Of a stretch of 64,000 bases of DNA, positions 3,101 through 27,995 are shown piece by piece. Each line of letters opens with the position of its first letter. The first letter of the stretch is position 1. The DNA is from Myxococcales bacterium (GTDB taxonomy: Bacteria > Myxococcota_A > Polyangia > Polyangiales > Houyiibacteriaceae). Location of the stretch: the NCBI GenBank assembly GCA_024640845.1, contig JAHEEE010000009.1, forward strand, positions 4,052 to 68,051, in the 5' to 3' direction. The notes beneath the pieces are model-generated. The model saw nothing but the letters and a program-made list of their open reading frames with translations, was not told where the DNA came from and made no database searches. The translations under genes and the position numbers were made by a program.

Positions 3101-5430
3101 GCGGCCTGGCGGGCGGTGAGCTCGAGGACGCCGGCGATGTCGAGGCCCATGTACTCGACGTCGAGAACCGGTCCGACGAAGCGCCTCCCTTGGCACTCCG
3201 GGCAACTGAACATCACGTCGGCCAAGAACTGCATCTCGACAGTCTCGGCGCCATCGCCACGGCACGCTTCGCAGCGGCCGCCGGTGACGTTGAAGGAGAA
3301 GAAGCCTGGCTTGTACCCTCGCTCCTTGGCCAGCGGCTGAGCGCTAAAGCGCTTTCGGAATACATCCCAAATCTTCAAATATGTCGCTGCATTACCCCGT
3401 GAAGTTCGACCGAGTGGGGCTTGGTCGACCCCTACGACCCCGTGCAGCGAGGCAAACCCCGTAAGGCTCGCATGCTCGAGCGGCGCGCCCTCGGCCTTCA
3501 GGCCGAGCTTTCGTTGAACAGCCGGAAGCAGCGTCTCGAGGACCAAGCTGCTCTTGCCGGACCCGCTGACTCCGGTGACGCAGGTCATCACGCCTCGCGG
3601 GAAGGCGACGTCCACCGAGCGCAGGTTGTGACCGGCGGCTCCCTTGATTTCGATCCAGCCTTGCGGCTCGCGCCGTGTCCGCTTTCGCGCCCCATTCACA
3701 CGAAGTGCGGCGCCGGTCGCCGTGTCGGCGTTGCGCAGCGCCGCCGGCGTGCCGTCGAAGACGATCTCCCCGCCGTCTTCGCCCGCGCCCGGACCCAGCT
3801 CGATCACACGGTCGGCACCGAGGATCATCTCCGGGTCATGTTCCACCACGACAGCGATGTTCTCATCCTTCGAAAGCGCGCGGACGACGCTCAGCAGGCG
3901 CTCGACGTCGCGCGGATGCAGCCCGACCGTCGGCTCGTCGAGGACGAACATCGCACCGTTGAGTGTCGCGCCGAGGGCGCTCGTGAGCGCGACGCGCTGC
4001 GTCTCGCCACCCGAAAGCGTGCGCGAGGTCCGGTCGAGCGACAGGTAGCCGAGGCCGACATCGTGCAAGGCCCGCAGCCGTCCAATCGCTTCGCGCCAGA
4101 GCAACGCGGCACCGGCGTCAGCGGCGAACCGCGCCTCTTGCTGCTCCAGAAAAGAGAGTGCATTCGAAGCGGGAAGTCCGTAGAGCTCGGGAAGACTGAG
4201 CCCGTCGATCGACCAGGCGAGAGCCTCGGGCTTGAGCCGGGTGCCGTTGCAGTCCGTGCAGGTCTCGTACTTCCGGTACCGGGACAAAAACACGCGCACA
4301 TGCATCTTGTAGGCGCGCGACTCCATCCATTTGAACCAGCTGCGAATCCCCCACCACCCTTTGGGATAGCCGATCTCATCGCCATCGATCAGCCACTCGA
4401 GCTCGGCCGGTGTCCACTTGTTGAGCGGCTTTCCGAGCGGGATCCTGGCCTTTTTTGCGTGCTTTTTGAGCTCACGGCGTTCCCAAGTCGTGGCCTTGCC
4501 CTGCCACGCACGAATCGCGCCCTCATCCGGCGACAAGTCGTAGTCCGGAATCACGCGGTCGAGGTCGATCTCGATCGTGCGCCCGAAGCCCCTGCATGTC
4601 TCGCAGGCCCCGATGGGGCTATTGAAGCTGAAGAGCCCCGGCGTTGCACGACGAAACGATCGGTCGCAGCTCGGGCAGTGAAGGCCTTCGGAGAACCCGA
4701 GCTCCGTCCCGCCTGCCGACCATACGGAGGCGCGCCCCTCGCCCCGGCGCATCGCGTCCTCGAGCGCTTCGACCAAGCGGTCCTGGTCTCGCGGCCGAGC
4801 GACCGTACGGTCCGCGATGACGTCGACATGCGTGCTGCGCCCGTTGGTGATCTCGCTTGGGCGAACCCCGTCGAGGTCGCGAACCTCGCCGCCGACCCGA
4901 ACGCGCCGATATCCGTTCTTCAAGAGGCCCTCGCGGATACCGATGAAATGCTCGCCGTCGGCGACCGCGACCGGATAGGTGATCAGCACCTTTTGTCCGG
5001 CGAGCTCGCTCAACACGCTTTGCGCTGCGCGCGTCGGGGCGTCGCGGTGCACGAGCGCGCCACACCCCGGGCAGTGAAGCTCGGCCGCGTGGGCCCATAG
5101 GTGTTTCGCGTAGTCAGCGATTTCGGTCATCGTGCCGACGGTGGAGCGGCTGGTGCGGACGGGCGCTTGGCGGTCCACCGCGATTCCGACCGGAACCGGA
5201 TCGAGCTCGTCGACCGGGGGTCGCGAGAGGCGCTCCAGGAACTGGCGCGCGTAGGCGCTGAAGCTTTCGACGTAGCGACGCTGCCCCTCGGCGTACAGGG
5301 TCTTGAAGGCGAGCGACGACTTACCGGCACCCGAGGGTCCGACGACGGCCAGAAACGTGCCCGGCGCGATGTCGAGATCGATCGACCGCAGGTTGTGGGT
5401 ACGCGCGCCTCGAAGTTTGGTGGGCTGCAT
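121..5430 (-). CDS. uvrA: Double-length UvrA (two UvrA units fused in tandem)
   Basis: Excinuclease subunit UvrA recognises bulky DNA lesions and loads UvrB in nucleotide excision repair. This protein has 1769 residues, about twice the roughly 940 usual for UvrA, and contains two complete UvrA-like halves. Walker A motifs lie at about 31-39, 620-628, 970-978 and 1466-1474. LSGGE signatures lie at 472, 810, 1318 and 1656, each followed by a DEPT Walker B. CxxC zinc-module pairs occur in both halves (for example C252/C255 with C276/C279, and C720/C723 with C743/C746). The halves join through a basic linker near 920-945. Since UvrA normally dimerises, the fusion may be a covalent pseudo-dimer. 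It starts with ATG and shows no frameshift. Whether both halves are active, or whether a normal UvrA exists elsewhere in the genome, cannot be seen here. Confidence 0.96.
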
Positions 5431-23576: not shown

Positions 23577-24506
23577 ATGAGGTCGATTGGGGTGTGGCGC
23601 GGCGTCGCCGTGGTGTTCTTGGTCCTTTTGATGCATCTGCCCGCCCACGCGCAGCGGAAGCACACGGTTCAGTCGGGGCAGACGCTTGGGGTGATTGCGA
23701 AGCGCTACCGCGTGTCCGTCACCAACCTCGCAGCGGCCAATGGGCTGAAGAAGACCTCGAATCTGCGCATCGGTCAGGTGCTGAGGATTCCACCCAAGGG
23801 CGTCGTTTACGTGTACCCGGGTCAGACCCTCACGGGCATCGCGCAACTCAACAAAGTGAGCGTGACCGCTCTCGCGAAGGCCAATGGCCTCAGCCCGAGC
23901 TCCACGTTGCGCGTCGGTCAACGTTTGGAGCTGCCCGGCTACAGCGCGGGCGCCAAGGCAACGAAAGCACGTAGAGCCATCCTCAGCGGAATGGTGACGC
24001 TCGAGCGTCCTGCAAGCCAGGAGTCGCTTCGGGTGCGCCTGTTCGACACGGCCGGCAAGCCCGATCCGAAAGCGAGAACACGCTTGGCTCGGTTCTTGCG
24101 CGACCGCGAAAGCGACGAGGAAAAGCGGCCCAGCATCCGGTTGATGCGGGTCCTTGCGTACCTCGCCGATCATTTCAACGGCCGCACGATCGTCGTGGTC
24201 AGTGCGTACCGCTCCGACAAAGATGGGACGAGCGAGGCGAGCCGCCATTCGTCAGGCGAAGCCGTCGACATTCGCGTCGAAGGCGTGCCTAGCGAGTCGC
24301 TGCGTGACTATTGCCTCACCTTGCGGCGCGTGGGTGTGGGCTACTATCCGCGGAGCAGCTTCGTCCACGTGGACGTCCGGGACCGCGAGGTGTATTGGGT
24401 CGATTGGTCGCGGCCAGGCGAGCCGCCGCTTTACCTTCCTCCCGGTGAAACCCCGGAGAAGTATGACGCGGGCTCCTCGACTGGGTCCACGCCGGCCGCG
24501 CTCTAG
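23577..24506 (+). CDS. LysM and DUF882 (peptidase M15-like) envelope protein
   Basis: A 309-residue secreted protein. A signal peptide ends at AHAQ, followed by two LysM repeats ([19 protein letters not shown] and [17 protein letters not shown]) that bind peptidoglycan. The C-terminal part is a DUF882/YcbK-like domain: [24 protein letters not shown] and [10 protein letters not shown] carry the arginine, histidine and aspartate pattern of the zinc-dependent M15 peptidase fold. A role in peptidoglycan cross-link trimming is likely. The ATG at 23577 was chosen because it begins the signal peptide; GTG codons three and nine bases earlier are possible, and no strong ribosome binding site is visible. 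The stop interlocks with that of the convergent regulator. Confidence 0.87.
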
Positions 24507-26815
24507 CCGCCCCCTGCCGGAAGCTCGATCCCATGCTGCTTGAGACGGCGGTAGAAGGTGCGTCGCGCCATCCCGAGTGAGCGCGCCGCCCTGGCACGGT
24601 TCCAGTCATGTGCGTTGAGCGCTGCCAGAATGCGGTCCCGCTCGGCATCTTTGAAGTCTCGGTAGTTGTTCGCGTCCGGCGCAGTTCTGAGCGGTTTCGC
24701 GCTCGTCTCAATCGCGAGGTCCTCTGCCTCGATGATGCCGCCGGTCGCAAAAACGCTGGCGTTGATCAGCAGATGCTCGAGCTCTCGCACGTTGCCCGGG
24801 AAGTCGTGTGCGCCCAAACGCCGAACCGCGGCCCTGCTGAGACTCTTCTTCGGCTCCCCCCGTTCGTTGGAGATGCGGGTGAGGAAGTGGTCGCAGAGCA
24901 GCGGAATGTCGTCGCGGCGCGCGCGGAGCGGGGGCAAATCGATCTCCACGACCGCGAGCCGATAGTAGAGATCCTCTCGAAGCTGCCCTTCGGCGACCAG
25001 CTCGCGCAGAGGGCGCTTCGAGGCTGCGACGAGCCGAACATCGATGGGCCTTTCTTCGGCTGAGCCCACCGGCCGGACGCGACGCTCCTGCAGGACCCGA
25101 AGTAGGTCCAGCTGCATGCGTGGAGGCATGTCGGCTATTTCGTCCATGAACACCGTGCCCCCGTTGGCTTGAACGAACAAGCCCTTGCGGGCCTGCGTCG
25201 CGCCGGTGAAGGCTCCCTCGACGTGGCCGAAAAGCTCGCTCTCGAGCAGTCCTTCGGGAATCGCGCCGCAGTTCAACGATAGGTACGGCGAATCGGCCCG
25301 CCCGCTAGCGCGATGAATGGCTCTTGCGACGAGCTCCTTGCCGGTGCCGCTTTCTCCCGTGATGACGACAGGAACCTCGTTGGCCGCCACGCGTTCCAGG
25401 ATCTCGCAGACGTGCGCCATGCCCTCACTCACACCGACCAGACCCCAGCGCTCCCCGCTCGCGGTCGATGCTCCGAGGCGCGCGATCTCGCGACGAGTCT
25501 GCTGCAAGGCCTCCTCCTGGCCGCAGAGCCGCTGCTCGAGTTGGAGATTCGCCTCGCGCAGTGCCTCGTTCGCGCGCTCCAAGTCCTGTTTCTGGGCTTC
25601 GATACGCTCCAAGAGGGCGGCCGTTTCAATCGCGATCGCTGCCTGATCGGCGAATGCGCGGAGCACGGAGAGGTCCATCCCCGAGAACCGCCCGCTCGCG
25701 CTCCGATGCTCCAGGTAAAGCACACCCCAAGTCCGTCCGCGCGCCTCGATTGGCAAACAGGCGACCGACTTCAACATCAACTGATGAACCGACATGTAGT
25801 CCTGAACCCGCGCGTCGTGCGTGGCATCGATGGTGACCACCGGCTCCTGGTCGATCAACACGGTTTCCGCTATCGAGCGACTGAACGCAGCGGTGTGCTT
25901 GCCGAGCCGGTCCTCGGCCCCGCGAATGGTTCGGGCCTCGAGCTTGCCGGCCTCGTCGACGAGCAAGACGAAACCTCGCTCTGCGCCCGAAAGCGATACA
26001 GCGCTGTCAGTGATCAGCCCGAGGAGCTTGGGGAGATCGCGCTCGCTTGCGAGGCGCCTGAGAATGCCTAGCAATGGTCGAACACCAGTTGCTGCCGGCG
26101 CGGTCGCGATCGGCTTCGCTCGTTTCGCTGCGGCGCGCGTTTTTTGCCGCCGGAGGTCACGCCAAAACCCAGCGCGCAAAGGGGGCGGCAAGGTCATCGC
26201 CATGTCGTCCCAGAGCTCGACCGCGCGAACCGCGGCCTTGCGCGCGGCTTCCTCGTCGCCAATCGCCCGATGGCGTTCGCAAAGGTCAGCCCATGCGTCT
26301 GCCTCCGCGCGAGTAGCGCCCTCGCCGCGCGCCCGCGCCGCCGCGCTGCTCAGCTCGTCGACCGACCCTCGTGCGCCCGCCGTCTCTTCCTCGATCTCGA
26401 TCCGCGCCCTCGCTACGATGGATGCGGCGCGCGCTCGAGCGCCGGGCGACTCCGGAGGCTTCCCGCCCCAACGCAAGGCCGCCTGCCAATCGCCCCGGGC
26501 CGCTGCGATCCGTGCGCGCACCAAGGACACACGTGGAGCCTCGCCCACGGCATCGGCGAGCAGGCCGAGGGCGGCGTCCTCGTTACCACAAAATGCCTGT
26601 AGCTCAGCTCTCGTCAACAGACGGATCTGCGCCGGGTCGGGTGTTTCGTCTGGCTCCCAAAGCACTTCAAAGGCTGTGCCCAGATCGCCTCGCTCCACGT
26701 GAGCCCAGGCAAGCTCCGACACAAGATCGTGCCGCTCGGGGCCATCTGTGATCGCCAAACACGCTGAAAGATGTTGAACGAGTTCAACAAGGCACACCGA
26801 GGCACGGTCTGGCAC
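24503..26815 (-). CDS. Sigma-54-dependent activator with TPR-like, GAF and Fis domains
   Basis: A 770-residue enhancer-binding protein. Residues 30-205 are alpha-helical and TPR-like. A GAF sensory domain spans about 255-400 and a coiled coil about 400-447. The AAA+ domain spans about 455-690, with Walker A GESGTGKE (487-494), the sigma-54 contact loop GAFTGA (534-539) and Walker B VFMDEIAD. The C-terminal Fis-type HTH is at about 725-765. It has no receiver domain, so control is probably by ligand or protein binding rather than phosphorylation. All residues needed for sigma-54 contact are present. The GTG start has no clear ribosome binding site, and an inverted repeat lies within its first codons. 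Confidence 0.95.
26772..26789. repeat. Inverted repeat in the first codons of the sigma-54 activator gene
   Basis: Two perfect 8-base arms (TGTTGAAC and GTTCAACA) are separated by GA. The site lies 26 to 43 bases inside the gene from the GTG start. It could be an operator for autoregulation or an mRNA hairpin near the ribosome binding region. Codon constraints alone do not require the symmetry. Confidence 0.5.
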
Positions 26816-26835: not shown

Positions 26836-27009
26836 CTAGCGCCCGCCTAGGTCGATGATCAACACACCGCGCTTGGCATCGTCCTCGCGCTCGGGCGCTT
26901 GGGAGCCTTCCGGTGCGGGAAGCGGCAATTCGATGCGAAGAACCTCATGCTTTGATCGCTCCTCTTCCTCGCGTTGTCGGATTTGATCGATGATGAAGCC
27001 TGGAAGCAT
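26836..27009 (-). CDS. 57-residue acidic/basic protein, very short gene
   Basis: This gene is short and easily missed. The ATG has a good ribosome binding site (AGAGGAA) five bases upstream. The protein starts [18 protein letters not shown], continues with a charged middle and ends [11 protein letters not shown]. The hydrophobic start, charged helix and final beta-strand give a compact pattern not expected of a random frame. I have the impression that similar short MLPGF proteins occur in related bacteria, but I cannot verify this. No function can be assigned. It is transcribed toward the sigma-54 activator gene and may be co-transcribed with it (about 20 bases apart). Confidence 0.7.
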
Positions 27010-27152
27010 CGGTTCCTCTTTCTTTAACCTAGGTCACTCTTCGGGCTCGGCCAATATAATAACGCCTTCCACCCCCACAAGAGCCGTGACACAACATGAT
27101 TCGCAGTGCTGTTTGTGTTCCGAAAGCTTTGTGATCTTCAGAGGTTCGCTTC
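27010..27152. promoter_or_regulatory. Divergent promoter region between the small protein and ksgA
   Basis: The AT-rich CCAATATAATAA at 27051-27062 contains TATAAT toward ksgA and TATATT on the other strand. On the minus strand a TTGTGG lies 16 bases from TATATT. No good -35 was found for ksgA. The ksgA ribosome binding site AGAGG lies eight bases from its GTG. Confidence 0.35.
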
Positions 27153-27995
27153 GTGACAAAGCCGATCTCTGATCTGCCCGATGCCCGGGATCTCCTCAGG
27201 AAGCACGGCCTCGCTCCCAAACGAGGTTTCTCGCAGAATTTCCTCGTTCAACCCGCGATCACAGCACGGATCGCGGATGCTGTGACCGATCTCGGGAGAG
27301 AAGTCGTGGAGCTGGGGCCCGGCTTGGGGGCGTTGACCCACCCGCTTCTGCTCTGCGGTTGCCGCGTACTGGCTGTCGAGCTGGATCGCGACATGGTCCA
27401 CGTCTTGGAAGAGGAGCTCGGCGGACACCCCCAGCTCGAGATTCGCCAAGGCGATGCTGCAGAGCTCGATCTGACTGCGTATTCGAGGGCTTGCGGAACG
27501 AAGCTCGTTGTCACTGGAAACCTGCCATACCAGGCGACAGGAGCGATTCTCCGCCAGGTCGTTCGGCACCGTGATGCGTTGAAGGGGGCGGTTTTGATGG
27601 TTCAACGCGAGGTTCGCGACCGCCTGGTCGCCCGGCCGAGCACCAAGGAATATGGCGCCCTCAGCGTATTCATCCAGGCGGCGTTCGCGGTAGATACGGT
27701 CTGCCGCCTCAAGCCCGGCTCCTTCTTTCCCCCACCCCAAGTGGAGAGCTCCGTGGTCCGGCTCACGCCGTGGCCCGAGCCTCGCGCGGAGGAGACTCAG
27801 ACCTTCCAGGAGATCGTTCGGGCAGCGTTTCAGATGCGGCGTAAGACCCTTCGAAACGCGCTTCGGTCCATGGGAGACCCGGATCGCGTCGCTCGTGCGG
27901 CCGACGACGCCGGGATCGACCTAGGTCGTAGGGGAGAGACCCTCTCCGTCGAAGACTTCGCGCGACTTGCGGCGGCGTGGGACAGGCTCGGCTAG
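27153..27995 (+). CDS. rsmA: 16S rRNA dimethyladenosine transferase KsgA
   Basis: RsmA/KsgA dimethylates two adjacent adenosines near the 3' end of 16S rRNA and checks late 30S assembly. The S-adenosylmethionine site is in VVELGPGLGALT, followed by the acidic VELDRDM. The catalytic motif NLPY is in VVTGNLPYQATG. GFSQNFLV at the N-terminus and FFPPPQVESSVVRL near the C-terminus are highly typical. The 280-residue length is normal. The GTG start is supported by AGAGG eight bases upstream. Confidence 0.97.
   Translation: MTKPISDLPDARDLLRKHGLAPKRGFSQNFLVQPAITARIADAVTDLGREVVELGPGLGALTHPLLLCGCRVLAVELDRDMVHVLEEELGGHPQLEIRQGDAAELDLTAYSRACGTKLVVTGNLPYQATGAILRQVVRHRDALKGAVLMVQREVRDRLVARPSTKEYGALSVFIQAAFAVDTVCRLKPGSFFPPPQVESSVVRLTPWPEPRAEETQTFQEIVRAAFQMRRKTLRNALRSMGDPDRVARAADDAGIDLGRRGETLSVEDFARLAAAWDRLG

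Follow-up and report, generated by a model that had tools for sequence, protein, structure and literature searches.

A short gene between a sigma-54 activator gene and ksgA

The window, a 64,000-nucleotide stretch of DNA from a Myxococcales bacterium, contains a short open reading frame (ORF) in the 337 bp that separate a sigma-54 activator gene on the minus strand from ksgA on the plus strand. The ORF consists of 57 codons and a stop and lies on the minus strand, a detail absent from the sequence-only reading of this DNA. The features of the locus are as follows.

24503-26815, minus strand: gene for a protein with GAF, sigma-54 activator and Fis-type HTH domains (Pfam); downstream neighbour, outside the small-protein family
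26836-27009, minus strand: small-protein gene, 57 residues, conserved in frame within the genus
26848-26871, minus strand: C-terminal block of the small protein, residues 47-54, RGVLIIDL
26917-26940, minus strand: central block, residues 24-31, consensus P-[RQ]-L-E-L-P-L-P
26962-27009, minus strand: N-terminal block, residues 1-16
27014-27019, minus strand: Shine-Dalgarno-like AGAGGA
27024-27037, minus strand: near-palindrome GTGACCTAGGTTAA in the 5' leader, candidate gene-specific operator
27051-27068, minus strand: 18-nt element AAGGCGTTATTATATTGG, likely core promoter
27153-27995, plus strand: ksgA (identified by sequence and by the sequence-only reading), divergent neighbour, inherited synteny

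The sequence-only reading had described a 57-residue frame between these two neighbours, preceded by a strong ribosome binding site, and had taken it for a real short gene. All of this is borne out. AGAGGA lies four bases ahead of the ATG, and similar stretches precede the ATG in relatives within the genus. Within the genus, 18 of 19 genomes (the window included) match the small protein at E <= 8.3e-18, as do 17 of 18 other genomes of the wider family and order at E <= 9.2e-4; further matches to sequence profiles extend across Myxococcota. Neither of the two non-matching genomes (G003 and G019, each an assembly of more than 500 contigs) contains a convincing copy by profile either. A search of the same 37 genomes with the reversed peptide gave nothing below E 0.005. 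The sequence-only reading took the gene to fall below usual length cut-offs; common gene callers, however, take ORFs of about 90 nt.

The ratio of synonymous to nonsynonymous change, which had been proposed as a check on coding selection, was determined for 18 genus sequences. The pN/pS of the small gene is 0.27, and pN is smaller than pS in all 153 pairs; variable sites at codon positions 1, 2 and 3 number 28, 15 and 48 of 55. Stop codons break four of the other five frames in 10 to 15 of the 15 ungapped genus sequences, and the fifth frame in 6. A low ratio (0.35) is seen in one antisense frame too, yet all 15 sequences carry stops in it. A spurious ORF is ruled out by the pN/pS and by the stops in the other frames. 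In many relatives an in-frame stop is found shortly upstream of the ATG, which supports the assigned start. An Rfam search at the locus returned sub-threshold matches only and no known RNA. Judged from these comparisons, the small ORF is almost certainly a real gene.

Two elements in the leader are conserved along with the gene. The near-palindrome is situated just before the Shine-Dalgarno sequence. Its exact genus form, TTGACCTA[GC]GTTAA, occurs once each in 13 of 19 genus genomes, always beside the small gene by coordinates; the window carries a one-mismatch form (chance expectation 0.03). As a side observation, the near-palindrome TTGACCTASGTTAA resembles an operator with a single target. 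The 18-mer, 42-59 bp upstream of the ATG in the window, is identical in all of the genus sequences that were aligned (11 of 18), which have the near-palindrome in common as well; it is present once each in 17 of 19 genus genomes, again always beside the small gene. By inspection, it contains a putative -10 element (TATATT, 27053-27058) preceded by a weak -35 (TTGTGG, 27075-27080), while its plus strand contains TATAAT facing ksgA. A promoter scan of the window called no site. We infer that the 18-mer is likely to be the core promoter of the small gene.

The sequence-only reading had noted an ordered pattern in the protein, with a hydrophobic start, a charged helix and a hydrophobic LIIDL end, and this pattern has turned out to be the conserved anatomy of a protein family. 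There are three conserved blocks: an N-terminal helix, MLxxFII-[DE]-x-I-[RK]; a central strip, [RQ]-[LIV]-E-[LIV]-P; and a C-terminal RGVxII-[DE]-L. In alignment A4, which has 64 members and from which L081 was left out because of a stop inside the match, the mean column identities of the blocks are 0.84, 0.75 and 0.78, respectively. The two stretches between them have mean identities of 0.40 and 0.33 and are without predicted structure. The C-terminal block shows no gap or insertion in any of the 64 members, and the N-terminal block has seven inserted residues in all; most of the inserted residues (168) come after residue 30, where the central block ends. In the 120 host loci surveyed the protein is 47-70 residues long, the shorter lengths including matches that start after the true start, apart from one outlier of 150 residues (L075), where the frame continues and which was counted as it stands in the survey of motif, length and charge. 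The net charge is negative in 116 of the 120, with a median of about -4.

AlphaFold2 predicts a single helix at residues 5-20 of the window protein (mean pLDDT 67, pTM 0.22) and at residues 3-21 of a member beginning MLDA (pTM 0.27), with no fold in either case. The small protein is taken to be soluble and mostly without a predicted fold.

Outside the genus, 85 of 103 members contain the motif [LIV][EDQ][LIVM]P. In the form [RQ]-L-E-L-P-L, the central strip resembles the motif of beta-clamp-binding peptides, which are of the QL[SD]LPL type, as in Hda. This candidate was rejected, as the key Q position is occupied by R in 45 of the 85 members and by Q in only 11.

The family is absent from every reference library searched (Pfam, NCBIfam and the PDB, with PHROG matches that are unreliable). 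The window protein reached no curated cut-off in Pfam or NCBIfam and had no match there. Among 28 diverse members the best E-values were 0.075 for Pfam, 0.061 for NCBIfam and 0.0043 for PHROG, one member each, and one virus member has a single weak match to phrog_35860 at 0.0035. The sole match among solved structures, a potassium channel at E 1.2, was dismissed. Six peptide strings of the family do not occur in 5.39 million open-access papers, most subscription journals being outside this scope, and word searches of the same literature brought up nothing on the family in the parts of articles retrieved.

Distribution and neighbourhood in Myxococcota

Conservation of the frame in Myxococcota, the other check proposed, was examined in 282 sampled genomes. 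Profile A1 detected the small protein in 168 of them at E <= 0.01. The broader profile A2 detected it in 189 at E <= 0.001, corresponding to 138 of 192 good assemblies and 125 of 186 genera, although many rows of A2 derive from the sampled genomes, which therefore match by construction. Most of the 189 genomes have one match; two are often found in family f26. The contexts of the two f26 copies (L168, L174 and L198 versus L164 and L153) differ, with an SDR gene and a sigma-54 activator close to one of them. The small gene is not universal, since 93 of the 282 genomes, including every genome of families f22, f25 and f29, have no match to profile A2 at E <= 0.001.

A named genome collection, searched with a pattern specific to the window-type protein, yielded 86 confirmed loci, of which 80 were kept; their titles are myxobacterial, deltaproteobacterial or uncultured, with Sorangium, Sandaracinus, Labilithrix and a bin labelled Nannocystis among them. 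The profile searches covered Myxococcota genomes. Family f36, which has large genomes and may be Myxococcus-like, encodes a 55-residue version, so that a laboratory myxobacterium is likely to have the small gene.

The surroundings of the gene were compared by tblastn at eligible loci, that is, those with enough flank for the neighbour check. In the window the activator gene starts 20 bp downstream of the small gene on the same strand. A homologous GAF/sigma-54 activator follows the small gene at all 13 eligible genus loci and at 6 of 51 elsewhere. The ksgA gene lies divergently upstream at all 12 eligible genus loci, as the direct neighbour, and at 28 of 48 loci outside the genus. Outside the genus, mostly within the order, the small gene borders a DUF4350-MoxR-DUF58-ksgA run, the divergent upstream genes being DUF4350 in 48 of 60 eligible loci, MoxR in 49 of 57 and DUF58 in 45 of 55. 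Of the twelve DUF4350 exceptions, six are loci where the called frame does no more than overlap the small gene, three have DUF4350 downstream on the same strand and three have none. Gene counts that rest on the neighbour label 'N1214' are lower bounds, for this label probably reflects the DUF4350-MoxR run read in antisense; the tblastn counts take their place.

In the window's genus the small gene persists without DUF4350, MoxR or DUF58. PF14258, the DUF4350 family, is above cut-off in none of the 19 genus genomes (seven have weak matches below it), but exceeds it in 14 of 15 other members of the family and order; in two of these, G033 and G035, it lies on a different contig from the small gene. 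Comparison of these arrangements suggests that the window most likely represents the ancestral site, from which DUF4350, MoxR and DUF58 have been lost. At 40 loci outside the order, none has DUF4350, MoxR, DUF58 or KsgA labelled beside the small gene (within about 5 kb), and the neighbours vary by family. Thus, the small gene is not tied to one operon. A separate observation concerns L081, where, from about 7230 onward, a 1651-residue ORF occupies the position of the kinase/sigma-54 activator; the activator match covers only its last third, and it is possibly a fusion.

Copies on virus contigs

Seven distinct members of the family were found on eight contigs classed as viral by IMG/VR. These are L212 and L213, which encode an identical protein and have a GC content of 0.33, L214 (257 kb, GC 0.60), L217, L220, L223, L230 and L232. 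Myxococcota is a mostly GC-rich phylum, and a GC content of 0.33 is odd for its phages. Three of the contigs came from searching IMG/VR with a member of the Myxococcaceae type, and codon patterns for the N-terminus added more. The pattern MLDAYII[DE] gave five stretches; all were real, and three lay on contigs known by then. MLDAFII gave two, one real; and MLD[AP]WII gave four, two real. None of the five stretches for MLPP[FY]II was real, and MLPD[FY]IIYDE gave no stretch in the viral contigs. An earlier viral scan with the window-type alignment A1 returned 78 stretches, none confirmed, and an MLDAYII scan with alignment A5 returned 14, of which two were confirmed, both on known contigs.

Membership of the virus proteins was assessed with a hidden Markov model (HMM) built from host sequences only. 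The seven score between 2.5e-14 and 1.1e-4, and the next best of 2200 ORFs from 15 viral loci scores 0.019. A C-terminal motif like RGVxII[DE] is present in six of the seven, L214 being without it; this is independent support, since most of the virus members had been searched for by their N-terminus. Searches of INPHARED phages with three queries found no member, and neither did full scans of the cultured Myxococcus phages Mx1 and Mx8 (best E 0.39). Plasmid searches gave one partial chance match at E 2 and then none.

For six virus members the best host match falls in one of five host families (f47 twice, f27, f23, f24 and f13); for L232 it is L086, a locus without a family label. This spread is weakly suggestive of several acquisitions, bearing in mind that similarity over 57 residues can neither date transfers nor prove that each phage took its host's copy. 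L217 and L220 have in common a PG-binding, endolysin-like gene (70% identity) close upstream of the small gene, and L230 and L232 have in common an AAA protein (45%) and a ClpP-like gene beside it. With these shared genes taken into account, the contigs perhaps represent five phage groups. The top-ranked INPHARED match of the L230 AAA protein is Myxococcus phage Mx1 (34%, 8e-40), which suggests a myxobacterial host for the L230 group, this being the one contig for which a host is suggested.

Three further details were recorded on these contigs. In L230 (5543-6191) and L232 (6188-7029) the ClpP-like protease gene, which has a leader or lipoprotein-type start, is divergent from the small gene. 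In L217 (5574-5915) and L220 (2177-4160) a repeated tag similar to RKALIRLAS..GS..RK.IL.GL opens several virus ORFs and resembles a shared targeting or processing signal. The L212 member (5001-5201) has an apparent second, repeated C-terminal strip (RVIIIDT ... IGIVIDL).

Possible function of the small protein

A predicted helix without a fold, conserved ends, the lack of a constant operon and the existence of virus-borne versions together point to an accessory docking peptide. We give about an even chance to the reading in which the small protein acts in trans on a conserved cytosolic host complex, with some phages carrying their own version. Conservation and the low-confidence models suggest a peptide that would dock at several points. 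The N-terminal helix, through L2, F5, I6, I7 and I10, would bind a surface of the host complex; the C-terminal RGVxII[DE]L strip would bind the complex too, by beta-strand pairing; and the linker, rich in proline and acidic residues, would bridge the distance between the two docking ends. Phages, probably those of Myxococcota, may use their own version to dock on the same complex, to retune it or to compete for it. As the gene is widespread, mostly single-copy and independent of any one operon, a core machine such as RNA polymerase, the ribosome or a protease would be the most likely partner. It is a tentative further step, and one we hold to be possible rather than probable, that this docking peptide of a core machine has been taken repeatedly by phages from, or tuned to, their own host groups in order to commandeer the machine.

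Naming the machine is more doubtful. In one specific version of the docking peptide, RNA polymerase or the ribosome would have it as an accessory subunit that phages replace with their own, and we consider this unlikely. A widespread, mostly single-copy, operon-independent gene with virus copies recalls the ribosomal protein bS21, which, according to PMC9723584, is encoded by phages. The two are alike in being small host-type proteins with relatives on diverse virus contigs, one of them 257 kb long in the present case. The comparison is one of pattern, with no sequence relation claimed; the small protein is acidic rather than basic, and family and structure searches gave it no match. A role as adaptor or inhibitor of a ClpP-type protease, in which the conserved ends would dock on Clp or its ATPase and allow phages to redirect proteolysis, is a lead but an improbable choice. 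It draws on the two related virus contigs L230 and L232, where a ClpP-like protease gene lies at 22 and 104 bp from the small gene, and on host family f24, where the gene is convergent with clpP in all three loci fetched. However, of the 139 host loci scanned, the other 136 gave no ClpP by phmmer; four of the seven virus records, possibly fragments, have none; on the 257-kb contig ClpP is about 38 kb from the small gene; and both virus ClpPs look secreted, judging by inspection of their starts.

The remaining alternatives are tied to the neighbours. In the window's order the usual neighbour is the DUF4350-MoxR-DUF58 cluster, and the small protein could regulate the MoxR AAA+ machine or be its substrate, perhaps at the cell envelope. 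The frequent divergent placing of DUF4350 outside the genus, with three more loci where it is downstream, is in keeping with this. Nevertheless, the genus retains the small gene under selection where PF14258 does not rise above cut-off, and none of the three genes was labelled at the loci outside the order, so that a part in this system has a poor prospect of being correct. A leader peptide or upstream ORF controlling the sigma-54 activator would explain the 20-bp spacing in the window and the conserved leader elements of the genus, found only beside the small gene, but its amino acids are also conserved in the 45 of 51 eligible loci outside the genus where no activator follows; this reading is disfavoured and very improbable. 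The same is true of a toxin-antitoxin component or a chance ORF, for which only small size speaks: the loci examined show no constant partner gene, and purifying selection and broad conservation run counter to both, leaving this reading scarcely credible.

The small gene should matter to the cell, being retained in about two thirds of the sampled Myxococcota through very different neighbourhoods. Its copies on virus contigs suggest that phages exploit a host process, and they provide ready-made variants with which to search for the partner. If the proposal is correct, that partner would be a new control point common to host and phage.
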